Shown here: one piece after another, positions 1 through 10,016 of the stretch
Layout: each line of letters starts with the position of its first letter
Position numbering within the stretch: position 1 is the first letter of the stretch
Source: an uncultured Prevotella sp.
GTDB taxonomy: Bacteria; Bacteroidota; Bacteroidia; Bacteroidales; Bacteroidaceae
Direction of reading: 5' to 3'
Assembly (NCBI GenBank): GCA_900770515.1
Contig: CAAHDP010000347.1
Coordinates: 1-10,016, forward strand
Length of the DNA stretch: 10,016 bases
Position numbers and translations under genes: made by a program
The notes under the pieces: model-generated
What the model was told of the DNA's origin: nothing
Seen by the model: only the letters and a program-made list of their open reading frames with translations
The model's database searches: none

Positions 1-779
1 ATATCAGAGTCGGTAGAGATAGCATACTGAACGCCTTCTTTCTTGCGGCAGGTATAGGCGATGGTCTTGGAATCCGGACTCCATGCCAGCTGCTCGATGC
101 CACCGAATGGAGCCATAGGACACTCGAATGGTTCATCCTTCAGGATGTCTTCGCCGGCGTTGACGGTACCGTCCTCAGCCACATCAGCCACGAAAGGATG
201 GAGAAGGCTCTCTACGTAGTGGTCCCAGTGGCGATAGTTCATGTCGGTAACGAGACGACCGGTAGCCAATGGAAGGTCAGAAGGATTCTCCTTGATGGTT
301 CCGTGATAAGGGAGTTCCTTGATGAGGATTACCTTCTTGCCGTCAGGAGAGAAGCGGAAGCCCTGGATGCCCAACTTGTCGTTGGTGAGCTGCTTGCGGC
401 CTGTTCCGTCTGGGTTCATGCTCCAGAGCTGACCGCCACGGATGAAGGCAATCTTCTGACCGTCCTGAATCCATGCAGCATCGCTTTCGCTCTTGGCATC
501 AGTGGTCAGTGCCTTCTGGTTCTTGCCGTTGGCATCCATGATGAAGAGCATCTGATGGCCCTTGTTTTCCTTTACACTGTAGTAACCTACCTGGTACACC
601 ACCTGCTTGCCGTTAGGCGAAGCCTCTGCTGCACCGATTCTTCCCATCGCCCAAAGAGCCTCTGGGGTCATCAGGTGGTTCTCCACCTTGATGTTGTTTT
701 TCTCAATCATAGTCTGTGCATCAGCTGCCGTAGCGCTCATGGTGAGTGCAGCCGCAGCCAGAATCATTGCTTTAATCAT
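1..779 (-). CDS. S9-type secreted serine peptidase, N-terminal part (cut by window edge)
   Basis: Starts at the ATG read down from 779 and stays open to the window edge, giving 259 complete codons. Seen: a short signal peptide (a few polar residues, then the hydrophobic run AMILAAAALTMSATA, then ADAQ as a likely cleavage site). Next come repeated beta-propeller blade signatures of the TolB/PD40 kind, such as ASPNGKQVVY, RFSPDGKKVILI and AWSPDSKTIAYT, each followed by a strand. Family knowledge: an N-terminal propeller of this kind precedes the alpha/beta-hydrolase catalytic domain in S9 (prolyl oligopeptidase / acylaminoacyl peptidase / DPP) enzymes, which trim peptides in the periplasm or at the cell surface in Bacteroidota. 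The catalytic Ser-Asp-His lie outside the window, so activity cannot be judged. A TolB-like propeller protein without a peptidase domain is the main alternative. It has its own promoter at 834-864. Confidence 0.8.
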   Translation of the reverse strand, partial: MIKAMILAAAALTMSATAADAQTMIEKNNIKVENHLMTPEALWAMGRIGAAEASPNGKQVVYQVGYYSVKENKGHQMLFIMDANGKNQKALTTDAKSESDAAWIQDGQKIAFIRGGQLWSMNPDGTGRKQLTNDKLGIQGFRFSPDGKKVILIKELPYHGTIKENPSDLPLATGRLVTDMNYRHWDHYVESLLHPFVADVAEDGTVNAGEDILKDEPFECPMAPFGGIEQLAWSPDSKTIAYTCRKKEGVQYAISTDSD

Positions 780-833
780 ATTTCTAAGATATTTATTAAT
801 TATTTCTCGTTGTCATCTTCCTGATATTCCGTG

Positions 834-864
834 CAAAGTTACAGAAAATTAATGAGAAAACAAA
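834..864 (-). promoter_or_regulatory. Bacteroidota-type promoter for the S9 peptidase gene
   Basis: On the minus strand TTTG (864-861), 19 nt, then TAACTTTG (841-834) match the Bacteroidota primary-sigma consensus TTTG-N19/20-TAnnTTTG. The start codon lies about 55 nt downstream of the -7 box, a normal leader length. Inferred from sequence only. Confidence 0.65.
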
Positions 865-905
865 ATTATTCTTCTTTCATTACAAAAGTATGCGTTTTTT
901 TTTTG

Positions 906-913
906 TATTTTTG
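906..913 (+). promoter_or_regulatory. Candidate -7 box for the AraC-type regulator
   Basis: TATTTTTG matches TAnnTTTG and sits at the end of a long T tract in the divergent intergenic region. No clear TTTG is found 19-20 nt upstream, so this is weaker than the opposing promoter. If it is used, the leader to the start codon at 997 would be about 75 nt. Confidence 0.4.
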
Positions 914-996
914 CATCAGAAATGATTTCGTTTAGTTTTGAAAACTGAATCATTCGGAGTATGAGTAAAGATAATAATAATTAAAATAATGAGTAA

Positions 997-2109
997 ATGA
1001 ATACATTGTTTCTCGTGCAGTTTGCTTGCTGCATTATTGTGTCGATGTTGGGCTTGATATTAATATTATCCAGGTTTCAGATACGTTGGTACAATCGTCG
1101 TTATGAGGTTTCTCGTTGGCTTCTTGCTTTTGCTATGTTTGTACTTACAGGACATTACGTTCTGCAAATGACTTATGGTTTCCGTGCAGAAAGCGATGAA
1201 ATAGGAGCCGTTGTCAATATTCTCTTCTATTGTCCTGTCTCTTTCATCATTTCCTATTCAGCGTATAATGTTATATCCTATAGAGGCGGGCGCAGGAATT
1301 TTGCCATAATGGGAGTTGTGAGCTATGCATTGATATTATTGTGTTTCTTCGTCGGATACTATGAGATTCCCAAGGGAATGCACATGGGGGAGTGGCTCTA
1401 TGTGATGCTCGCATTATTTGTACTCACGATTCTGTATAGCGTTTATACTACAGTCGTAGAGATACGGTATCATCGAAAAATCATCGAGGATAATACGACA
1501 GAAGATTTGCTTCCTTTCGACGGATATACCTATGCCAGTTATACTTTGATGGGTATCCTAGTACTGGCGATGGCTGCTGCCATCTGTTATCGTCCACTTC
1601 TCTATAGTGTGGCACCACTGATGCTTTTGGCTCTGATTTCCTTTGTAGTCCATTTCTTGGGTTTCGGTTACATTATCATGCCAACAGGGGTGAGATTGGA
1701 GATGGATACTGCTGATGCTCCTTTTGAGATGATGGAAGAGTGTGAAGGGATGGGGCTGGATTCTGAAAAAATAGCTATGATAGAATCTTTGCTTGATAAG
1801 TGGTGTGAAAATGGCGGATATAGAGACAGTACGGTGAATATGCCAATGCTATCGGCAAAGTTGCGCATTCCTCGCTCCGAATTGAGCTTCTATTTCGAGA
1901 ATTATCTGAAGAGCAGTTTCCGTACCTGGCTTAGCGATATCCGTTTCAAGGAGGCACAGCGTATGCTGCTGGAAGAAAGTGGGTACAGCAACGATACCAT
2001 TTCTACGGAATGCGGGTTCTCGTCTCATGCACATCTCTATAAGATTTTCAAGACTAAGACGGGATATACACCTGGTCAATGGAGAGACTCAGTACGGAAA
2101 ATGCAGTAA
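997..2109 (+). CDS. Membrane-anchored AraC-family transcriptional regulator (about 7 TM helices plus HTH)
   Basis: 370 aa, two-part architecture. Residues 1-230 contain about seven hydrophobic segments (roughly 5-25, 41-60, 70-93, 102-121, 133-155, 181-199, 203-228), with basic loops such as RWYNRRYEVSR between the first two. After an acidic linker (about 235-265), residues 275-365 form an AraC-type double helix-turn-helix. This includes the second-helix signature DTISTECGFSSHAHLYKIFKT and the closing TGYTPGQWR. Family knowledge: such proteins in Bacteroidota are thought to sense an envelope or membrane signal and bind DNA from the membrane. The ligand and targets are unknown. The start at 997 has no clear Shine-Dalgarno and is preceded by two tiny reading frames. 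Its targets may include the divergent peptidase or the downstream DUF1846 gene, but that is inference from position alone. Confidence 0.8.
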   Translation: MNTLFLVQFACCIIVSMLGLILILSRFQIRWYNRRYEVSRWLLAFAMFVLTGHYVLQMTYGFRAESDEIGAVVNILFYCPVSFIISYSAYNVISYRGGRRNFAIMGVVSYALILLCFFVGYYEIPKGMHMGEWLYVMLALFVLTILYSVYTTVVEIRYHRKIIEDNTTEDLLPFDGYTYASYTLMGILVLAMAAAICYRPLLYSVAPLMLLALISFVVHFLGFGYIIMPTGVRLEMDTADAPFEMMEECEGMGLDSEKIAMIESLLDKWCENGGYRDSTVNMPMLSAKLRIPRSELSFYFENYLKSSFRTWLSDIRFKEAQRMLLEESGYSNDTISTECGFSSHAHLYKIFKTKTGYTPGQWRDSVRKMQ

Positions 2110-2144
2110 TGTATCTGCTCTCTCTTATTTTTTCAGATAAAAGA

Positions 2145-2176
2145 TTTGTTAGTCCGATACTTTTTTTGTAATTTTG
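2145..2176 (+). promoter_or_regulatory. Bacteroidota-type promoter for the DUF1846 gene
   Basis: TTTG (2145-2148), 20 nt, then TAATTTTG (2169-2176) match TTTG-N19/20-TAnnTTTG. Transcription would begin near 2183, giving a leader of about 35 nt to the ATG at 2219. This supports choosing 2219 over the upstream TTG at 2174, which lies inside the -7 box itself. Confidence 0.7.
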
Positions 2177-2218
2177 CAGGCGATTTTTGATTTCAAATTG
2201 CAAGATATAATAACAATT

Positions 2219-3682
2219 ATGAAGATAGGATTTGACAACGAGAAGTATCTGAAGATTCAATCCGAGCATATCAAGGAGAGAATCTCTAAGTTTAACGGAA
2301 AGCTCTACCTGGAATTGGGAGGTAAGCTTTTCGATGACCACCACGCCAGTCGTGTTTTGCCGGGTTTCCAGCCTGATAGCAAACTGCGCATGTTTCAGAA
2401 AATCAGCGATAGCATTGAGATTGTTATCGTCATCAGTGCCGCCGACATCGAGAAGAACAAGAAGCGTGCCGACCTGGGCATTACTTACGATGAGGACGTG
2501 CTGCGCCTTCGTGGTGAGTTCCAGAACCGTGGTTTCATGGTGGGTTCTGTTGTCATTACCCATTATAACGGTCAGCCTGCTGCCATCGCTTTCAAGCAGC
2601 GTTTGGAGCGTGAGGGCATCAAGGCTTACTGCCATTATCTCATCGAGGGCTATCCTCACAACGTGAATCTCATCGCTTCTGACGAGGGATTCGGTCAGAA
2701 TGACTATGTGGAGACTGAGCGTCCGCTCGTCATCGTTACTGCTCCTGGTCCTGGTAGCGGCAAGATGGCTGTCTGCCTGAGCCAGCTTTATAATGAGAAC
2801 AAGCGCGGGGTGCGTGCAGGCTATGCCAAGTTTGAGACCTTCCCTGTATGGAATCTCCCATTGAAGCATCCGGTGAACATCGCATACGAGGCTGCTACTG
2901 CCGACCTCAACGATGTGAACATGATCGACCCATTCCATCTGGAGGCATACAACAAGATTGCCATCAACTACAACCGTGACGTGGAGATTTATCCAGTGCT
3001 CAATGCTTTGTTCGAGGGCATCTATGGCAGCAATCCTTACAAGTCGCCAACGGATATGGGTGTCAACATGGTGGGCTTCTGCATCTCTGATGATGAGGTT
3101 TGCTGCGAGGCATCCAAGAACGAGATTATCCGTCGTTACTATGCTGCAACCAACAAGATGGCGGCTGGCGCTTGCAATGATGAGGAAATCAACAAGATCC
3201 AGATGCTCTTCAATCAGGCTAAGATTACTACGGATTACCGCAAGGTGACTGTGGCTGCAAAGAATCACAAGAAGGAGACGGGTCATACTTCTGCTGCGTT
3301 AGAGTTGGAGGATGGCACGATTATCTGCGGTCACAGCAGTGAATTGTTGGGTTGCAGTGCGGCATTGATCTTGAATGTTACCAAGCACTTGGCGGGCATC
3401 GACCATGAATTGAAGTTGATTCCTCAGTCAATGATTGAGCCAATCCAGCATACAAAGGTGAATTATCTGGGTGGTCACAATCCTCGTCTTCATACGGATG
3501 AGGTTCTCGTAGCCCTCTCTGTTCTCTCGGAGAATGATGAGAACTGCAGAAAGGCATTGGAGCAGTTGCCTAAGCTTCGTGGCTGTCAGGCACATTGCAC
3601 CGTGATGCTGAGTGATGTAGACCAGAAGATCTTCAAGAAGCTCGGAGTGAATATCACCTGCGAGCCGGTGTTGAAGAAGTAA
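2219..3682 (+). CDS. DUF1846 / UPF0371 family protein
   Basis: 487 aa from the ATG at 2219, close to the usual length (about 490-500 aa) of this family. The start MKIGFDNEKYLKIQSEHIKE and LYLELGGKLFDDHHASRVLPGF are characteristic of the family N-terminus. Residues 177-182 (GPGSGK), directly after the hydrophobic strand LVIVTA, form a Walker-A-like P-loop, so nucleotide binding is plausible. The second half carries conserved-looking stretches (MGVNMVGFCISDDEVCCEASK around 280-300, and VAAKNH and TSAALELEDG around 345-366). The high content of charged residues and the absence of signal peptide and membrane helices suggest a soluble cytoplasmic protein. No biochemical function is assigned here. 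The gene is monocistronic by its own promoter and terminator. The family name is recognised from memory and the P-loop is seen directly. Confidence 0.88.
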   Translation: MKIGFDNEKYLKIQSEHIKERISKFNGKLYLELGGKLFDDHHASRVLPGFQPDSKLRMFQKISDSIEIVIVISAADIEKNKKRADLGITYDEDVLRLRGEFQNRGFMVGSVVITHYNGQPAAIAFKQRLEREGIKAYCHYLIEGYPHNVNLIASDEGFGQNDYVETERPLVIVTAPGPGSGKMAVCLSQLYNENKRGVRAGYAKFETFPVWNLPLKHPVNIAYEAATADLNDVNMIDPFHLEAYNKIAINYNRDVEIYPVLNALFEGIYGSNPYKSPTDMGVNMVGFCISDDEVCCEASKNEIIRRYYAATNKMAAGACNDEEINKIQMLFNQAKITTDYRKVTVAAKNHKKETGHTSAALELEDGTIICGHSSELLGCSAALILNVTKHLAGIDHELKLIPQSMIEPIQHTKVNYLGGHNPRLHTDEVLVALSVLSENDENCRKALEQLPKLRGCQAHCTVMLSDVDQKIFKKLGVNITCEPVLKK

Positions 3683-3731
3683 TTTCGAATTAAATTCTAT
3701 AGAAGAAGTAGATTCGGATTATATAAAATAT

Positions 3732-3793
3732 CCCCGAAGGGGTATAGTTAATCGTGAAGTTTGATTAATTATACCTTTTCGGGGCTATTTTTT
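3732..3793 (+). terminator. Intrinsic terminator after the DUF1846 gene (22-bp stem)
   Basis: Arms 3732-3753 and 3763-3784 pair over 22 bp around a 9-nt loop, and six T residues follow (3788-3793). Three pairs (3739/3777, 3740/3776, 3747/3769) are G-U in plus-strand RNA but would be A-C mismatches in minus-strand RNA, so the hairpin is tuned to the plus transcript. It may still work weakly for the convergent rhodanese gene, because the minus strand also continues into a T-rich stretch. The T tract overlaps the rhodanese stop codon. Confidence 0.85.
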
Positions 3794-4229
3794 ATCTTTC
3801 CACAGGCATTCCGAGCTTGGTCCAGTTTAGGATTCCGCCTTCCATATCATATATCTTGAAGCCTTGCTTCTGCATTTTCAGGCAGGCACCATGGCTTCGC
3901 TTTCCGCTTCTGCAATAGATGTAGTAGGTGCGGGATTTATCCAGCTTACTGATGCCGGCATTGAATGCTTCGGGATTGAGATAATCCAGTTGTTGGGAGC
4001 CAGCCAGATGTCCTTCTGCATATTCCTTTTGGGTGCGGACATCTAGAAGGATGCTGGTTGTATCTGCCTTTGCCTGGTTGATGAATGCCTGAGGAGCCAA
4101 TACGATGATACCATCCGAAGGGACTGGTTTTGCTGATGAATCAGATGGGGCTGATTGACTTGCCTGTGCTGAGCAGCCCGTAGTTGATAAGCCGATAGCT
4201 GCTAAAAATGATAATAATATTTTCTTCAT
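3792..4229 (-). CDS. Rhodanese-domain lipoprotein, probably periplasmic
   Basis: 145 aa. Residues 1-19 form a type II signal peptide: KK, a hydrophobic core, then STTGC with Cys19 as the candidate lipid-attachment site. The lipobox is loose, as is common in Bacteroidota. A Ser/Ala/Pro-rich linker (20-40) follows. Residues about 43-145 are a single rhodanese domain with LLDVRTQKEYAEGHLAGSQ (59-78), the active-site Cys106 in the six-residue loop CRSGKR, and the closing MEGGILNWTKLGMPV. Family knowledge: such domains carry a persulfide on the Cys and take part in sulfur transfer or thiol redox chemistry. The donor and acceptor here are unknown. It lies 80 bp downstream of the hip operon on the same strand, with no recognisable TAnnTTTG box in the gap, so read-through from hip is possible. 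It reads as an ordinary housekeeping lipoprotein rather than part of the toxin system. Confidence 0.87.
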   Translation of the reverse strand: MKKILLSFLAAIGLSTTGCSAQASQSAPSDSSAKPVPSDGIIVLAPQAFINQAKADTTSILLDVRTQKEYAEGHLAGSQQLDYLNPEAFNAGISKLDKSRTYYIYCRSGKRSHGACLKMQKQGFKIYDMEGGILNWTKLGMPVER

Positions 4230-4309
4230 TGTATATTGTTTTTGTTTTAAGCGTGACTTGTGACGGTCACTTTTGTGATTTTTTTATTATTCTATTTATA
4301 CAGAAAACG

Positions 4310-5251
4310 CTATCTCAAAGCCATGACTCTGCAGAGAATCAGCTTTTTGTATTCTTTTTTCATGCTATCCGGCAGAAAAGAGGCTTCTATCAGGTCGAGC
4401 CATTTCACGATGGAGCGACGGAACTTCTTGGCGATGTTGTTGATTACCTTCTCACTGAGTCCTGAGGCGGTCATAACCTTGATGAAGTCGGCTTTCTGAA
4501 TCTTTCTCTTTCTTCCGTTGAGCGTCAGTGCGAGTTCTTCGGGATCCTCCGGCATCACGAGCTGGGTGCAGAGAAGGTCGTAGGCTGGGGTTAAGCCATA
4601 GCCCAACTGGCGGTTGTTGTAGAGTGAGAAGTTCTTGAGGTGCATGTCGGCATTGCCGGTAATCCAAGAGAAGATGACTACTTCCCAATAGTTCACGAGG
4701 TCGAGCTGCGAGAAGGAGGAGTACTTTTTGATGAGTTTGGCTACCTGCTCGTAGGAACCTTTGTATTTGTATTCGGTGAGGCGCTCGGATAGCTGGCACA
4801 TATCTTCCATGGGTACTTTGGTGCCATCATCCAGTCGGTCTATTCTCCGGGTGATGTAACAGAGTTCGCCATCGGCAAAGCGAATCAGGCCATGGGGAAC
4901 CACGGCGATCTTGGCTGCTTCGGCGAGGTGCATCGTGAGGTCTTCTATTTCCGGGAGACAGCGATAGCGGTCGGTCTGTGGCTTGAGGATGTATTTTCCC
5001 CAGAGGCCTACGATGGTGAAGCGGGATGGTTCATTCTTTCCACCTGGGTTCACATCGAGCGAGAGCTTTGCCTGCACACCGGTCAGGGTGGTCTGGGCAC
5101 GCACTACCTGCTTTGCCAGGTCGCCGATTTCCTTTCTTACGTAGGGTAGGACAGGGGCTTCCTTGGTACCGAAGAGTTTCTTGGCGCAAGCAGGGTGGTA
5201 ATCTATCTGACCTGGCTTGAGCGGTTTATAGCAATATAGACATTTTTCCAT
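4310..5251 (-). CDS. hipT: HipT-like serine/threonine kinase toxin (HipA C-terminal kinase, split form)
   Basis: 313 aa. Residues 1-28 hold a zinc-knuckle-like motif (C4, C7, H19, C22). The HipA kinase core follows: Gly-rich loop QTTLTGVQAKLSL (53-65), likely ATP-binding lysine K90 in KYILKP, catalytic loop WITGNADMHLKNFSLY (196-211) with D202 as catalytic base and N207 as metal ligand, then PAYDLL with D225 replacing the DFG aspartate. All key kinase residues are present, so it should be active. The HipA N-terminal subdomain is missing and is encoded by the preceding gene. This is the architecture of HipBST systems, in which the kinase phosphorylates an aminoacyl-tRNA synthetase (TrpS for the E. 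coli O127 HipT); the target here is unknown. Start chosen at 5251, with GAAAGGAG 5-12 nt upstream. It follows hipS after a 15-nt gap. Confidence 0.85.
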   Translation of the reverse strand: MEKCLYCYKPLKPGQIDYHPACAKKLFGTKEAPVLPYVRKEIGDLAKQVVRAQTTLTGVQAKLSLDVNPGGKNEPSRFTIVGLWGKYILKPQTDRYRCLPEIEDLTMHLAEAAKIAVVPHGLIRFADGELCYITRRIDRLDDGTKVPMEDMCQLSERLTEYKYKGSYEQVAKLIKKYSSFSQLDLVNYWEVVIFSWITGNADMHLKNFSLYNNRQLGYGLTPAYDLLCTQLVMPEDPEELALTLNGRKRKIQKADFIKVMTASGLSEKVINNIAKKFRRSIVKWLDLIEASFLPDSMKKEYKKLILCRVMALR

Positions 5252-5256
5252 ATTTC

Positions 5257-5268
5257 TTTCTCCTTTCT
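5257..5268 (-). promoter_or_regulatory. Shine-Dalgarno of hipT overlapping the hipS stop codon
   Basis: Minus-strand AGAAAGGAGAAAG places AAGGAG at normal spacing before the hipT ATG at 5251 and overlaps the hipS TAG at 5269-5267. This dedicated site supports hipT as an independently translated gene coupled to hipS, not the broken end of one HipA gene. Confidence 0.7.
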
Positions 5269-5665
5269 AGTTTTGGGGTGAAGCATTTGTTACTTCTGCA
5301 GGTGAAGTTCCTTCTGCAGGTGAACTGTTGGTTTTTTCTGCATGAGATTCTTCAACCGGGATGACGCTGACGGCTCCGATGCAATCCTTGCAGCAGGCAA
5401 GGAGGAGCGACATTCTATCCCGCTGGTTGATTTTCCAACTGCTTTCTGCGATATTCAGTAGCCATCCTTCGGGGATTAACCCATCGAAGAAGGGAAACAG
5501 CACGGTATCGTGGTAGGGCTCGTTTGATAACGGGAGTGTGAGGCTCACGGCTTCGGCTTGACTCGATGCCAGATAATCAGCATCGTAAGCGAAGGTGAAG
5601 CCTGTTTCATCTTCCGTCAGCAGGCCTACGTATTGGTCGTAGAGATAAATCTTTCCTTGTTTCAT
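5267..5665 (-). CDS. hipS: HipS-like protein (HipA N-terminal subdomain, probable antitoxin)
   Basis: 132 aa. Residues 1-103 match the HipA N-terminal subdomain (couple_hipA type): GKIYLYDQYVGLL, FAYDADYLASSQAEAVSLTLPLS (25-47), FPFFDGLIPEGWLLNIAESSW (57-77), then a variant of the usual GxDCxGA as KDCIGAVSVIP (93-103). Family knowledge: in the E. coli HipBST system this domain is a free protein that neutralises the kinase, with a tryptophan reaching into the kinase active site. W68 in IPEGWLL is the obvious counterpart here. The remaining 28 residues form a Ser/Pro/Ala/Glu-rich tail with a duplicated SPAE(G/V)T unit encoded by an 18-bp tandem repeat, and are probably disordered. It is separated from hipB by 150 bp containing a palindromic repeat element and lacks a clear Shine-Dalgarno. 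It is one half of a split HipA, not a fragment, because its partner follows intact. Confidence 0.82.
   Translation of the reverse strand: MKQGKIYLYDQYVGLLTEDETGFTFAYDADYLASSQAEAVSLTLPLSNEPYHDTVLFPFFDGLIPEGWLLNIAESSWKINQRDRMSLLLACCKDCIGAVSVIPVEESHAEKTNSSPAEGTSPAEVTNASPQN
5293..5328 (+). repeat. 18-bp tandem repeat in the hipS 3' end
   Basis: CTTCTGCAGGTGAA occurs at 5293-5306 and 5311-5324, an 18-bp (6-codon) period that keeps frame and duplicates SPAEGT/SPAEVT in the HipS tail. Slippage here would change tail length without a frameshift. Confidence 0.75.
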
Positions 5666-5675
5666 GGAATTTTAA

Positions 5676-5762
5676 AGCTTTTGCCCTTACAGGGCGTTTT
5701 GGTATATATTGCTGATACCCAGGGCGATGCCCTGGGCTAGGAGCTTCTGCCCTTTCAGGGCG
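5676..5762. repeat. Triple-hairpin palindromic repeat element between hipB and hipS
   Basis: Two near-identical 21-nt direct copies (5676-5696 and 5742-5762, 19/21 identical by eye) each contain the small hairpin GCCCT-3 nt-AGGGC (5683-5695 and 5749-5761). Midway between them is a perfect 8-bp hairpin CCCAGGGC-GAT-GCCCTGGG (5718-5736), whose core is the same GCCCT/AGGGC unit turned inside out. The layout resembles dispersed REP-like elements of Bacteroidota chromosomes. That resemblance is from memory and no second copy lies in this window. On the minus strand it would sit in the hipB-hipS leader RNA and end about 10 nt before the hipS ATG. Confidence 0.7.
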
Positions 5763-5815
5763 TGTGATTCAGGCCTGGCATGTTGTTTTGCCTTGGCATG
5801 TGGGGCGAAGTCGCT

Positions 5816-6022
5816 TTATTCTTTTTTGATAGGAACGGGACCGATTTCCTGGCCGAAGAGGAGGAGAACCTGATTAACTTTGTCGAGTCGCAGCGTTTCC
5901 TTTCCCTGTTCCAGTTCTCTTACGAATCTGAGGCCTACGCCCGATTTCGCTGCCAGATCTACTTGGGTCAATCCGAATTGCTTGCGCATTTCCTTGACGT
6001 ATGATGATAATGTATTGCTCAT
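5816..6022 (-). CDS. hipB: HipB-like helix-turn-helix antitoxin/repressor
   Basis: 68 aa, a single Xre/Cro-type HTH domain filling residues about 6-58: YVKEMRKQFGLTQVDLAAKS, then GVGLRFVRELEQGKETLRLD, then KVNQVLLLFG. The run GLRFVRELEQGK...RLDKVNQVL is the signature of the couple_hipB (y4mF) subfamily that pairs with HipA-type kinases. Its role by family is to bind operators in its own promoter as a dimer and, together with HipS and HipT, to repress the operon. It is short for HipB (E. coli K-12 HipB is 88 aa) and lacks the extended C-terminal strand. It is the first gene of the operon. Its leader holds two CCCGAAAGGG-type direct repeats that are natural candidates for its operators. The ATG at 6022 is preceded by an A-rich stretch and no Shine-Dalgarno. 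Confidence 0.85.
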   Translation of the reverse strand: MSNTLSSYVKEMRKQFGLTQVDLAAKSGVGLRFVRELEQGKETLRLDKVNQVLLLFGQEIGPVPIKKE

Positions 6023-6034
6023 ATTTTATTTGTT

Positions 6035-6092
6035 TTATACCCTTTCGGGTAAAATGATATAGTTGGTAATACTATATTATACCCTTTCGGGG
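6035..6092 (-). promoter_or_regulatory. Repeated operator-like sites upstream of hipB
   Basis: TTATACCCTTTCGGG occurs at 6035-6049 and again at 6077-6091 (plus-strand reading), exactly 42 bp apart. The proximal copy is a perfect small palindrome TACCC-TTTC-GGGTA (6038-6051). Between them is a 7-bp inverted repeat ATATAGT/ACTATAT (6057-6063, 6071-6077). By analogy with E. coli HipB operators (TATCC-N8-GGATA), these are probable HipB binding sites; that is inference. Confidence 0.55.
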
Positions 6093-6093
6093 A

Positions 6094-6101
6094 CAAATAT
6101 A
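6094..6101 (-). promoter_or_regulatory. Candidate -7 box of the hipBST promoter
   Basis: TATATTTG on the minus strand matches TAnnTTTG. It lies directly upstream of the first operator-like repeat, so a repressor bound there would cover the transcription start. No TTTG is found 19-20 nt upstream, where the stem of the hairpin after hicB begins. Confidence 0.5.
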
Positions 6102-6120
6102 CGAATAAATAATGAAAATA

Positions 6121-6175
6121 CCCCCGAAAAGGTATAATTTATAATATCATTTAACAAATTATACCTTTTCGGGGG
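6121..6175 (-). terminator. Perfect 20-bp hairpin after hicB, probable terminator
   Basis: Arms 6121-6140 and 6156-6175 are perfectly complementary over 20 bp around a 15-nt loop. The hairpin begins 5 nt past the hicB stop codon. The following minus-strand sequence is T-rich (TATTTTCATTATTTATT) but has no long T run, so termination may be partial and allow read-through into hipB. The right arm shares 18 identical bases (AATTATACCTTTTCGGGG) with the terminator arm at 3767-3784. Confidence 0.6.
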
Positions 6176-6180
6176 TAATG

Positions 6181-6534
6181 TTATGCGTTTGTGACTGGAG
6201 TAACTCCTGTAACATTAGCTAGTGTGTCACGAATAAAACCATTGATTGTTGTTCCTGCTTGCATCGCCATCATTGCAATACGGCTATGAATTTCAGGAGT
6301 AATGCGGATATTTAAGTTGCCACTATAAGGTGCACGAGGTGCCTTGCCATTGGCTTTGCATAAGGCTAGATAGTCATCTATTGCGCCTTCAAAATCCCTT
6401 CGTAGTTCATTGACATCTTGACCTTCGTAGGTAATCATATCCTTGCTCATTCCGAGAACTTTGCCATATAAGCAATTGTCCTCCTCACTATAATCTACGC
6501 TACCCGTATAACCTTTATATTTTAATAATCCCAT
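6181..6534 (-). CDS. hicB: HicB-family antitoxin
   Basis: 117 aa. Residues 1-66 resemble the partial RNase-H-like HicB domain that binds the toxin: a YKGYTGSVDYSEEDNCLYGKV strand pair, then YEGQDVNELRRDFEGAIDDYL. Residues about 72-106 (GNLNIRITPEIHSRIAMMAM...INGFIRDTL) form a ribbon-helix-helix DNA-binding domain, as in HicB proteins that autoregulate. Role by family: neutralises HicA and, with it, represses the shared promoter. It is the second gene of the pair, 12 nt after hicA, and its strong Shine-Dalgarno AGGAGG (minus strand, 6548-6543) overlaps the hicA stop codon, which suggests coupled translation with excess antitoxin. A hairpin follows directly. Confidence 0.88.
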   Translation of the reverse strand: MGLLKYKGYTGSVDYSEEDNCLYGKVLGMSKDMITYEGQDVNELRRDFEGAIDDYLALCKANGKAPRAPYSGNLNIRITPEIHSRIAMMAMQAGTTINGFIRDTLANVTGVTPVTNA

Positions 6535-6546
6535 ATTATGTTCCTC

Positions 6547-6810
6547 CTATTTATTAATATATCCATTAGCTTTTAGAAATGTGAATACTTGTCTCATAAC
6601 ATATCCTTTGATAATATTTGAAGGATGAGGCTTGTGCATGATGTAGCTATTGCCATCTTTGTCATTGACAAATATGACTCTTGAACCAGAAGTTGTTCCT
6701 TTGTTTTCCTGATGGAACCCATAGCAAGAAAATACACTAACCATCTCGTCGAAAGTAAAATCTTTCGGCAGGCTATAGAAGCGTTTCAAAAGTTTATCTT
6801 TCTTGTTCAT
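6547..6810 (-). CDS. hicA: HicA-family mRNA interferase toxin
   Basis: 87 aa, the usual size. The pattern LLKRFYSLPKDFTFDEMVSVFSCYGFHQENKGTTSGSRVIF, then IMHKPHPSNIIKGYVMRQVFTFL, is that of the HicA/YcfA fold, a double-stranded-RNA-binding-like domain that cleaves mRNA when free of antitoxin. In classical HicA the catalytic His lies in a GSHH-like motif. Here that place reads SGSR, while the second motif HKPHP (H59, H62) is intact, as in the subfamily paired with HicB in Bacteroidota; this is from memory. It leads the hicA-hicB operon on the minus strand, downstream of a promoter with an overlapping palindrome. It begins at the ATG read from 6810, which has no strong Shine-Dalgarno, consistent with low toxin translation. 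Confidence 0.85.
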   Translation of the reverse strand: MNKKDKLLKRFYSLPKDFTFDEMVSVFSCYGFHQENKGTTSGSRVIFVNDKDGNSYIMHKPHPSNIIKGYVMRQVFTFLKANGYINK

Positions 6811-6837
6811 TTGTCACATTCTTTATTTATTCGACTG

Positions 6838-6868
6838 CAAATGTAACTAAAAATAGTTACACTTCCAA
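6838..6868 (-). promoter_or_regulatory. hicAB promoter with overlapping palindromic operator
   Basis: Minus-strand TTGG (6868-6865), 19 nt, then TACATTTG (6845-6838) approximate TTTG-N19-TAnnTTTG. A perfect palindrome TGTAACTA-AAAA-TAGTTACA (6842-6861) fills the spacer and enters the -7 box, which is where a HicB ribbon-helix-helix dimer would block RNA polymerase. The palindrome is seen; the operator role is inferred. Confidence 0.6.
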
Positions 6869-6920
6869 GCTTTTGGGGCTTTTTAACAATCTTTTTTTGG
6901 CTTTAATTATGTAATCATAT

Positions 6921-6966
6921 AAAAAAAGCGTAACGAACACCTTTTCTGGGTAATCCATTACGCTTT
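6921..6966 (-). terminator. Intrinsic terminator of yidC
   Basis: Arms 6958-6966 and 6925-6933 form a 9-bp stem (AAAGCGTAA/TTACGCTTT). On the minus strand the stem runs straight into seven T residues (6927-6921). It lies 20 nt past the yidC stop codon and separates the core operon from the hicAB region. The loop is long (24 nt). Confidence 0.8.
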
Positions 6967-6985
6967 AATTATTATCTAGAAAACT

Positions 6986-8923
6986 TTATTTTCCGAGATT
7001 ATTCTTTTTCTCGTTCAGTTCTGCCTGCTTACGCTGCATCTCTTCCTGCTGCTGGCGCTGCAACTCCTGAAGGGCCTGCATTCTTGCCATAAGGCCGCTT
7101 GCCTTCTTAGGGTTGTTCTTGTTCTCCTGATAGCGCTTCTCCAGGATGGCGAGGAGCTTCTCGTCGTTGGTGGTCTTGCGCAAGGTCCACATGATTGCGG
7201 CACTGAAGAACAAGGAGATGAAGTAGTAGAAGTTCAAACCTGCTGAGTAGTCATTGAACATGAAGAAGAACATCAATGGCATGAGAAACATCATCCATTG
7301 CATCATCTTCATCTGCTCTGCCTGCTGACCTACCATTTGGTCACGCTGCTGGCGCATGGTCATCCATGAGTACAACAGGTTGGCTACGCAGAAGAGAATA
7401 CAGGTCAAACTCAAGTGGTCGCCAATCAACCAGATGTTGGTGTTCCACTCGAAGATTGGGTCGAAGGTGCTCAAGTCGCTCATCCACAAGAACTTCTCAC
7501 CACGAAGCTGAATAGCGTTAGGCACGAAGTTGAACATCGCAACCCAAACCGGCATCTGAATCAGCATAGGGATACAACCAGATAATGGGCTTACACCATA
7601 CTTGGCATACTCTGCCAGCATCGCCTGCTGCTTCTGCATTTGATCCTCTGGCTTGTTGAACTGAGCGGTAGCTGTCTCGAGCTTTGGCTTCAACACACGC
7701 ATCTTGGCAGAACTCATGTAGCTCTTCTTCACCATAGGGTAGGTGATGAGCTTCAGGAGCAATGTGATGAGAATCAATACGATACCCATTGGGAATACAT
7801 TGCTCAACCAGTCGAACACGTAGAGTGTGAAGAAACGGTTGATCCAGCGGATGATAGGCCATCCCAGATATACGAGCTTCTGGAACTCCAGGTCCTTGCC
7901 GAAGGTGCTCTCCTTCTCTGTATTCTTCAGAATCTGGAAGTCGTTAGGACCAAAGTAGAACTCAAACTCAGATGCCTTCTTGCCGGTAGGGTCGAAAGCT
8001 GTCTTCATCTTAGCCTGGAACTGCTTCAGGTAGCCTGTGCCCTTCTCCTGAGGGATAGAAGTCATGAAGGCATCCTTGTCGAAGTTGTCCTTAGCCACCA
8101 TGATGGCAGAGAAGAACTGGTTCTTGAAAGATACCCAGTCGATAGTCTCTTCAATCTTCTCGTCGATTTTCTCGCTGCCCTCGTTCAGGTGGTCGGTGCC
8201 GCCCTCTGCCTCATGATAGGTGAGGGTGGTGTAGCGGTTCTCGAACATGAATCCACGCTCCTGCTGGCGCGCCTTGTCGCTCCAGTCGATGCTCATCTTG
8301 TTGCAGTTTGGTGAGAACAGACCAGACATTCCCTCAGCCTGCAGGCTCATGTGGAGCATGTAGCCCTTGCCCAGGGTGTAAGTCATACTGAGGGTCTTGC
8401 CAGGGGCAGCCACAGCAGTCATGGTTACAGAGTTCTTGGTAACGTTGGATGGAGTGAAGTAGAGGTCGCTGGTGATGATGTTTGCTTCCTTTGCCTCGAG
8501 CATGAACTTGAGGCACTGGTCTTTGCCGTCGAAGAGCGTAACGTCCTTCTGGTCGGCAGAACCATCTTTCACCTGGAGGTTGTGACCCACATACCCCTTG
8601 ATTACAGCTTTCTCTACAGTGCCACCCTTGGTGTTGAGAGTAAGCGCCACTTTCTCGTTTTCGAGCGTTACAGTCTTAGCCTGTCCCTTCAAAGCCGAGT
8701 AGAAGAGGGCGGTAGAGTCTGCCTCGATTTTTGCTTTTGCATCAGCCTGGCGCTTATCAGCGGCAGCCTTGCTTGCTTTTTCCATCTCGGCGTGCTTAGC
8801 CTTGGCGATGGAGTCCTGAACGAATGCCGTTCTCTGTTCTTCGGCTGATGGCTGGTTGTACCAGCTGAAACCTATCAGCACTACGGCAATCAGGAGGAAA
8901 CCGAAAATGTTGTTTTTATTCAT
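6986..8923 (-). CDS. yidC: Membrane protein insertase YidC
   Basis: 645 aa, the normal length for Bacteroidota YidC. Residues 6-21 are the N-terminal membrane anchor, followed by a Lys/Ala-rich charged stretch (38-70) and the large periplasmic P1 beta domain (about 75-345). The insertase core follows: TM segments near 362-396 with K391 in LLLKLITYPM at the place of the groove arginine of E. coli YidC, a cytoplasmic helical hairpin (MSSAKMRVLKPKLE to KQQAMLAEYAKYGVSPL, 403-447), then PLSGCIPMLIQMPVWVAMF (446-464), TM near 497-520 and the last two near 541-556 and 563-580. The C-terminal 60 residues are basic and Gln/Glu-rich, probably a coiled helix that contacts the ribosome. It inserts inner-membrane proteins alone or with SecYEG. 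It lies 121 bp after pyrG on the same strand with no clear promoter between, so the two are probably co-transcribed. Confidence 0.96.
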   Translation of the reverse strand: MNKNNIFGFLLIAVVLIGFSWYNQPSAEEQRTAFVQDSIAKAKHAEMEKASKAAADKRQADAKAKIEADSTALFYSALKGQAKTVTLENEKVALTLNTKGGTVEKAVIKGYVGHNLQVKDGSADQKDVTLFDGKDQCLKFMLEAKEANIITSDLYFTPSNVTKNSVTMTAVAAPGKTLSMTYTLGKGYMLHMSLQAEGMSGLFSPNCNKMSIDWSDKARQQERGFMFENRYTTLTYHEAEGGTDHLNEGSEKIDEKIEETIDWVSFKNQFFSAIMVAKDNFDKDAFMTSIPQEKGTGYLKQFQAKMKTAFDPTGKKASEFEFYFGPNDFQILKNTEKESTFGKDLEFQKLVYLGWPIIRWINRFFTLYVFDWLSNVFPMGIVLILITLLLKLITYPMVKKSYMSSAKMRVLKPKLETATAQFNKPEDQMQKQQAMLAEYAKYGVSPLSGCIPMLIQMPVWVAMFNFVPNAIQLRGEKFLWMSDLSTFDPIFEWNTNIWLIGDHLSLTCILFCVANLLYSWMTMRQQRDQMVGQQAEQMKMMQWMMFLMPLMFFFMFNDYSAGLNFYYFISLFFSAAIMWTLRKTTNDEKLLAILEKRYQENKNNPKKASGLMARMQALQELQRQQQEEMQRKQAELNEKKNNLGK

Positions 8924-8947
8924 TCTTATTTTTATTGTTTTATTTTC

Positions 8948-8996
8948 TCTGAAGAGACAGCAAACTCTATGCCTTTCTGCTGTCTGAAGAGACAGC
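8948..8996. repeat. 14-bp direct repeat in the pyrG-yidC gap
   Basis: TCTGAAGAGACAGC occurs at 8948-8961 and 8983-8996. The second copy is part of a 6-bp hairpin GCTGTC-6 nt-GACAGC (8979-8996). No T tract follows on the minus strand, so it is not an obvious terminator. It might be a processing or weak attenuation site. Confidence 0.5.
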
Positions 8997-9044
8997 CATC
9001 CGCTTTTTCATGATGAATGCAGCAGAATCTTAGCTCTTTTCCTG

Positions 9045-10016
9045 CTATTTCTTGTTAGCGATGGCGGTCTTTACAAAGTCAACAAACAGTGGGTGTGGTT
9101 TCAAAACCGTGCTCTGGTACTCTGGGTGATACTGTGTTCCTATGTACCACTTCAAGCCCGGAATCTCCACGATTTCTACCAGGTCGCTCTCTGGGTTGCG
9201 GCCCACGCACATCATGCCATGCTTCTCGTATTCCTTCAGGAATTCGTTGTTGAACTCATAGCGGTGGCGGTGGCGCTCCTGGATATGCTCCTTCTTGTAG
9301 ATGTTGAACACGCGACTGCCCTGCTTCAGCACGCACTCGTAGGCGCCGAGTCGCATGGTTCCACCCATGTTTGATATGTTCTTCTGCTCCTCCATGATGT
9401 CGATGACATTATGCGGAGTCTTCTCATCCATCTCGCGCGAGTTGGCATCCTTGTAGCCCAGCACGTTGCGGGCGAACTCGATCACCATCATCTGCATACC
9501 CAGGCAGATGCCGAAGGTAGGGATGTCGTGGGTGCGGGTGTAGTGGGCAGCGATAATCTTGCCCTCGATGCCTCGCTGGCCGAATCCAGGACAGATGACT
9601 ACGCCATCCTGACCCTTCAGCTGCTCAGCCACGTTCTCTTCTGTGAGATATTCTGAGTTGATGAATGTAATCTTCACCTTGTGGTCGTTGTAGGTGCCGG
9701 CATGCGAGAGACTCTCGCGGATGCTCTTGTAGGCATCCTGCAGGTCGTATTTTCCTACGAGACCGATGTTCACCGTCTCGGTAGCCTTGTTTCTGCGGTC
9801 GAGGAAAGTTCTCCAAGGACCCAGCGCAGGCTTCTCGCCGATAGGTTCGCCCATCTTGCGGAGAATGGCGGTGTCGAGGCCCTGGTTCTGCATGTTTACA
9901 GGCACCTCGTAGATGCTAGGAAGGTCTTCGCTCTGGATTACGCAGTCTAAATCTACGTTGCAGAAGCTAGCCACCTTCTTCAGGATTCCCTCTTCGAGAT
10001 GCTTCTCGGTGCGGAG
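9045..10016 (-). CDS. pyrG: CTP synthase, C-terminal part (cut by window edge)
   Basis: 323 codons are visible and the reading frame is open to the window edge. The GTG at 9974 is internal, because the frame continues upstream with LRTEKHLEEGILKK, a conserved part of the synthetase domain. Visible are the end of the amidoligase domain and the whole class I glutamine amidotransferase domain: NIGLVGKYDLQDAYKSI, oxyanion region CPGFGQRGIEGK, nucleophile FGICLGMQM (Cys codon at 9506-9504), RHRHRYEFN, and the QYHPEYQST motif with the catalytic His and Glu. The amidotransferase triad is complete. The enzyme makes CTP from UTP, ATP and glutamine, the last step of pyrimidine nucleotide synthesis. The full family length is about 535-545 aa, so roughly 215 residues lie outside. 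It is followed by yidC. Confidence 0.97.
   Translation of the reverse strand, partial: LRTEKHLEEGILKKVASFCNVDLDCVIQSEDLPSIYEVPVNMQNQGLDTAILRKMGEPIGEKPALGPWRTFLDRRNKATETVNIGLVGKYDLQDAYKSIRESLSHAGTYNDHKVKITFINSEYLTEENVAEQLKGQDGVVICPGFGQRGIEGKIIAAHYTRTHDIPTFGICLGMQMMVIEFARNVLGYKDANSREMDEKTPHNVIDIMEEQKNISNMGGTMRLGAYECVLKQGSRVFNIYKKEHIQERHRHRYEFNNEFLKEYEKHGMMCVGRNPESDLVEIVEIPGLKWYIGTQYHPEYQSTVLKPHPLFVDFVKTAIANKK

Follow-up and report, generated by a model that had tools for sequence, protein, structure and literature searches.

A probable chromosomal HipBST toxin-antitoxin operon in an uncultured Prevotella, and the branch to which it belongs

Does a HipA-like kinase gene preceded by a separate gene for the HipA N-terminal domain mark an intact three-gene system or one hipA gene cut in two, and what would hold such a kinase in check? 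The question is raised by contig CAAHDP010000347.1 of an uncultured Prevotella, a gut member of the Bacteroidota (GenBank assembly GCA_900770515.1), analyzed over its positions 1 to 10,016 (the window), where hipB, hipS and hipT follow one another. The locus is very probably a complete chromosomal HipBST toxin-antitoxin operon, in which HipS would plug the kinase and HipB would act as repressor. HipBST systems are of a known kind, and homologues have been reported in Bacteroidota (PMC10653801). A branch marked by the linked signs described here (the HipT residues C4, C7, H19 and C22, hereafter CCHC, the HipS residues W68 and C92, and an operator) was not found described in the literature searched.

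Gene order and age of the split

The operon is made of three genes:
hipB, 6022-5816, minus strand: helix-turn-helix regulator of 68 amino acids (aa), Y4mF/HipB family (TIGR03070 couple_hipB/Y4mF, 83.1 bits, cut-off 71.65)
hipS, 5665-5267, minus strand: 132 aa, HipA N-subdomain-1 only (PF13657 Couple_hipA, 2.7e-27), carrying W68 and C92; model m81246050b705
hipT, 5251-4310, minus strand: HipA-like Ser/Thr kinase of 313 aa (PF07804 HipA_C, 1e-46)

All three open reading frames (ORFs) are complete. In domain searches PF07804 is confined to HipT and PF13657 to HipS, N-subdomain-1 being thus a separate protein; the one-piece HipA of HipBA systems is not found, as HipS and HipT are separate ORFs. 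The order regulator, HipA N-terminal domain, kinase, proposed in the initial annotation, is borne out by the ORFs and the three family matches. The kinase residues which that annotation took as intact (K90, D202, N207, D225) all occupy the conserved catalytic columns in the alignment, and the Shine-Dalgarno sequence that it assigned to the kinase gene is recognized as AAAGGAG before the hipT ATG. The Gly-rich loop of HipT reads T55-L-T57-G, with Thr on both sides of L, and the predicted fold has a mean predicted local distance difference test (pLDDT) score of 92.1 (model mdc6769e56979).

The window was compared with genome G001, where 25% of the sampled words are common to the window, and with Segatella copri contigs. 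Three of the latter are the closest named relatives, with HipT identities of 91–97%. The C-terminal tail of HipS (5267-5356, minus strand) contains a short repeat, has low model confidence, and varies among the Segatella loci L031-L033.

Genes are arranged B-S-T on one strand in 131 of the 141 loci with a HipT-type match, window included; this count excludes L001 and L002 (copies of L032 and L045) as well as L075-L088. The remaining ten include eight distant one-piece kinases of 415–507 aa (L021-L028), L019, which has no hipB in order, and the fragment L073. None of the 141 encodes HipS and HipT in a single frame. The HipS profile gave no match on the eight one-piece kinases, missing their N-terminal domain too, so the absence of fusions is valid within the reach of the profile. 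Of the 7999 homologues that were scored, the top 120 measure 290–336 aa and carry HipA_C alone. HipS and HipT together resemble HipA, which favours a strain-specific lesion having cut one hipA gene in two, but no close relative with one continuous HipA was found, the one-piece relatives seen being the eight distant kinases without a HipS-profile match. Given the shared gene order, and the lack of fusions within the reach of the HipS profile, a lesion is rejected, and hardly any credence is left to it. Judged by gene order across these loci, the split is old.

Signs linked in the CCHC branch

The signs were surveyed in 127 loci, each with hipS and a HipT of at least 280 aa. Out of the 141 loci, 12 without hipS or a HipT of this size (L015, L016, L021-L028, L073, L115) and two identical copies (L108, L109) were dropped. 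Near-identical copies were kept, and counts therefore refer to loci, not to independent events. C4, C7, H19 and C22 occur together in the HipT of 101 loci; 60 of these and 7 others make up alignment A1. W68 is found in 99 of the 101 CCHC loci, and C92 in all of them versus 1 of the 26 others. Of the 127 loci, 123 retain intact equivalents of K90, D202, N207 and D225. The Gly-rich loop of CCHC loci is mostly (T/S/A)-aliphatic-(T/P). The branch occurs in Bacteroidales and Chlorobium-type genomes, among others. HipS features three branch-specific cysteines, C91, C92 and C95 (window 5381-5395).

The 26 loci without CCHC can be sorted into two groups. Seventeen are Legionella-like: HipT starts with CPITY, CPISY or CPLSY, loops are S-aliphatic-Q, -A or -G, and the place of W68 is mostly occupied by I or V. 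The other nine feature SxS loops and a HipT of 319–336 aa where the start is called, and seven of them are without the full ligand set. In a tree built without the first 53 HipT residues, 100 of 101 CCHC loci are grouped (local support 0.856), the window inside the group. Matches at E ≤4.3e-67 were found in 52 of the 395 genomes of the phylum sample; 48 of these were fetched, and all 45 surveyed loci of the fetched genomes other than G001 have CCHC.

Plasmids and IMG/VR contigs later provided 16 more loci, one of them a fragment. All 12 with CCHC also carry W, C92 and two operators or more; the three without CCHC have none of these signs. Two of the 12, L212 and L213, encode an identical HipT, and the members of the pairs L210/L211 and L218/L219 are closely related. 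The signs are linked, and went together in all 15 scorable further loci, some of which are near-copies.

The four residues that name the branch lie in the N-terminal mini-domain of HipT:
putative zinc-binding motif C4-C7-H19-C22, 5186-5242, minus strand

Spacing is C-x2-C-x11-H-x2-C. In the predicted model, HipT residues 1-40 reach a mean pLDDT of 91–97 per block, H19 is directly before the first helix, and C22 is inside it. The arrangement is reminiscent of a treble-clef finger. Pfam returned no family for the first 50 residues up to E 10, so the zinc reading rests on motif, conservation and model confidence, which suggest that the mini-domain probably holds a zinc ion. The motif is kept in the degenerate kinases L147 and L151 described below, hence the four residues are not tied to catalysis. 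In the O127 HipT, residues 1-41 form a mini-domain described, in the part of PMC10627512 available, as of unknown significance; there, zinc occurs solely in a reference title. The word is absent from PMC8262856, PMC10653801, PMC9325769, PMC6581861 and PMC9438503, and no report of a finger-like motif in HipT was found in the literature searched.

Palindromes evenly spaced upstream of hipB, and a promoter box, make up the putative regulatory region:
operator-like site, 6160-6177, no strand assigned: at -155 from the hipB start
operator-like site, 6119-6136, no strand assigned: at -114
operator-like site, 6078-6095, no strand assigned: at -73, sharing two bases with the promoter box
operator-like site, 6036-6053, no strand assigned: at -31
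promoter box TATATTTG, 6094-6101, minus strand: fits TAnnTTTG, which we take to be the Bacteroidota -7 box consensus
second operator-like pair, 3729-3746 and 3770-3787, no strand assigned: 41 bp apart, downstream of hipT, between convergent genes

The window contains seven TACCCTTTCGGG sites with up to 2 mismatches, four of them upstream of hipB, versus 0.49 expected and a maximum of 3 in 200 shuffles. TTATACCYTTTCGGG, allowing 1 mismatch, marks six sites in the 3.9 Mb of G001, five at the hipBST locus, and none in the reversed control; for TTATACCYTTTCGGG, a dispersed repeat is ruled out by this distribution. For the looser 18-mer with 2 mismatches allowed, specificity does not extend to whole genomes: G001 has 11 such places versus 4 in the control, and G025, G004, G017, G029 and G374 are at or below control.

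The operator consensus of the branch is TATACCC-N4-GGGTATA. The best hipB-promoter site is within 2 mismatches of it in 83 of 101 CCHC loci, which include the window and L031-L035 from which the consensus was derived, versus 0 of 26 others, whose best has 4. Among the 45 loci listed, shuffled promoters have a mean best of ~5.4–6.0 mismatches, never below 3. Sites within 3 mismatches number 241 in 25,095 bp of promoters versus 31 in 620,722 bp of other DNA, and 52 of 101 CCHC loci carry three such sites. Sites are spaced 40–42 bp, about four helical turns, in 141 of 152 cases. All 37 boxes meeting operators do so at the same offset of nine tried; the operator sequence disfavours most of the nine, and the fixed offset is therefore weaker evidence than nine-to-one. 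HipB is likely to repress the operon via these putative operators, for which no report was found in the literature searched.

The pair downstream of hipT may be a terminator, a second HipB site or a module boundary. Second pairs, also 41 bp apart, were seen in L032 (6464-6522), L034 (5959-6017) and L035 (4382-4440); that of L034 lies between convergent genes, like that of the window.

Neutralisation of the kinase and rival explanations

W68 had been placed by the initial annotation where a plug is expected, and indeed aligns with the Trp of the O127 EGW motif, corresponding to W65 in the portion of PMC10627512 available, where Trp65 of O127 HipS is reported as essential for the antitoxin role. 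HipS, encoded just before HipT, would act as antitoxin by docking where N-subdomain-1 of one-piece HipA sits. W68 would enter the pocket by the Gly-rich loop, and with the loop held out ATP binding would be blocked. HipB would bind the HipS-HipT pair and keep the operon repressed through the regularly spaced palindromes, one of which overlaps the promoter box, and the HipT mini-domain would probably carry zinc. Of this reading, the sequences and models show the order of the genes, their residues, predicted folds and conservation, the array of operator-like sites and the linkage of the signs; we infer that HipT is toxic, that HipS neutralises it by inserting W68, that zinc is bound and that HipB represses.

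L147 and L151, which belong to one lineage, are the only CCHC loci without W68, replaced by alanine. Their HipT has N207 changed to H and D225 to E, and in L147 also K90 to M. Nonsynonymous (dN) and synonymous (dS) divergence between the two, by NG86, is 0.047 and 0.19 in hipT, 0.008 and 0.25 in hipS; dN is low relative to dS, hence the genes still look constrained. The family of these bacteria has a copy in 21 of 86 genomes, and the other 19 surveyed loci all retain the four kinase residues and W. L147 and L151 are possibly pseudokinase HipBST systems. That W68 and the kinase site were lost together agrees with a role of W68 as the plug of an active site.

Neutralisation might also follow the Legionella style, through a P-loop change without a plug, W68 being kept for HipS folding or binding. 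HipT is nearer to Legionella HipT in sequence and fold, and residues at the W68 place are dispensable for Legionella neutralisation according to the available part of PMC10653801. Conservation of W68 throughout nearly all the branch, and the degenerate kinase site of the one lineage devoid of it, argue against this explanation, which we regard as unlikely. A little less probable still is a regulatory kinase module serving another purpose, as phage defence or plasmid upkeep, rather than a poison-antidote pair. Low dN/dS in the degenerate lineage, patchy presence within the genus, and members on plasmids, one of them conjugative (Runella pRUNSL02), and on 8 IMG/VR contigs would suit such a module. 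On the other side, almost all loci retain the full set of kinase residues, and PADLOC returned weak partial hits only.

Several observations weigh against a HipBST operon with HipS plug and HipB repression, or against a tidy linkage of its signs. Legionella HipS has no such tryptophan, features I65/M66 at its place and still neutralises (PMC10653801, part available), so a plug tryptophan is not needed in principle. The losses in L147 and L151 are a single event in one lineage, which limits their weight, and in L053 and L061 W persists although catalytic residues have changed. Two of the 26 non-CCHC loci (L132, L134) have the HipS tryptophan; L014 has CCHC and W yet is placed with the Legionella-like group (group support 1.0). 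In the SxS-type loci L135 and L136 the position of CCHC is taken by four cysteines, CxxC...CxxC, an independent-looking finger variant, so finger-like mini-domains also occur outside the branch. Twelve of the 101 CCHC loci have no operator within 3 mismatches, and TAnnTTTG boxes that meet an operator were seen in no more than 36 of the 101. Finally, the repeat lying between hipB and hipS in this strain (see below) may uncouple hipS from hipB, or lower their coupling.

Complexes have been solved for two HipBST systems, which give opposite answers on the need for a plug tryptophan. The branch joins a Legionella-like kinase, an O127-type tryptophan and a natural paired loss, and makes the question directly testable. 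With the CCHC motif there is a first hypothesis on the mini-domain that can be tested, and the operator array offers a ready promoter assay.

Genomic setting and known systems

The following features surround the operon or interrupt it:
yidC, 8923-6986, minus strand: one flank of the hicAB-hipBST-rhodanese stretch; on the other flank is a convergent DUF1846 gene
hicA, 6810-6547, minus strand: forms with hicB a hicAB-type toxin-antitoxin pair (PF07927, PF05534 for the pair)
hicB, 6534-6181, minus strand: adjoins hipBST directly on the upstream side
hipB-hipS gap, 5666-5815, minus strand: 150 bp, mostly a dispersed palindromic repeat
rhodanese-domain gene, 4229-3792, minus strand: downstream of hipT

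The gap repeat has 31 matches in G001, over parts of query bases 50-150. In L031 and L032 the operon is at the same place with a hipB-hipS gap of only 12 nt, and no hicAB match was found at the equivalent place. Gap repeat and upstream hicAB are local to this strain among the loci compared. No hipBST gene resides within the 1.5 kb fetched on each side of yidC in 16 other loci of the genus, and 11 of 36 same-genus genomes encode a closely matching HipT (E ≤1e-69), one of the 11 in pieces. Matches in phage records are two, both weak. At least one plasmid record carries the usually chromosomal mnmE, and may be mislabelled. The hipBST module looks patchy and mobile.

Known relatives differ in organization. 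E. coli K-12 HipBA has, as predicted here too, the kinase fold, a HipB HTH repressor and several operators, but HipA is in one piece and HipB is the antitoxin; the hipBA operator is TATCCN8GGATA in the part of PMC3376134 available. HipA is split also in the three-component HipBA of the gammaproteobacterium Haemophilus influenzae (HI0666, PDB 7czo; PMC9438503), and a HipS-like protein is the antitoxin. This is the best PDB sequence match of HipS, 7ab3_B being another relative; PMC9438503, in its available part, gives no operator sequence.

Legionella pneumophila HipBST (PDB 7vkb, 8ezr; PMC9325769, PMC10653801) has the same B-S-T order, and its HipT (8ezr) is the best match of HipT in sequence (1.9e-51) and fold. 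Growth arrest by Legionella HipT is not relieved by TrpS. The Gly-rich loop is SVQ in Legionella, TLT here, and the plug tryptophan is absent there, present here; the S-Psi-Q loop without HipS tryptophan, typical of the HipBST-Lp subtype, is thus not found, and the 17 Legionella-type Bacteroidota loci of the survey are without CCHC. Three evenly spaced operators, called the first for HipBST, reside upstream of Legionella hipB (PMC10653801, part available), with gaps of 53 bp versus 23 bp between 18-bp sites here.

E. coli O127:H6 HipBST (PDB 7ab3-7ab5; PMC6581861, PMC10627512), for which the target TrpS has been shown, has the same order too, and features a HipS tryptophan (W65, W68 here), two hydroxyl residues next to the Gly-rich loop and a HipT N-terminal mini-domain. 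HipB measures 107 aa in O127, 68 aa here. The kinases share 24–28% identity over structural alignments (sequence match 1.7e-15), and the S-Psi-S loop of the O127 subtype is not found. The likeness to O127 originally proposed therefore holds for the HipS tryptophan and not for the kinase, HipT being nearer to Legionella HipT. By sequence comparison this is a mixed branch, with a Legionella-like HipT and a HipS tryptophan of the O127 type.
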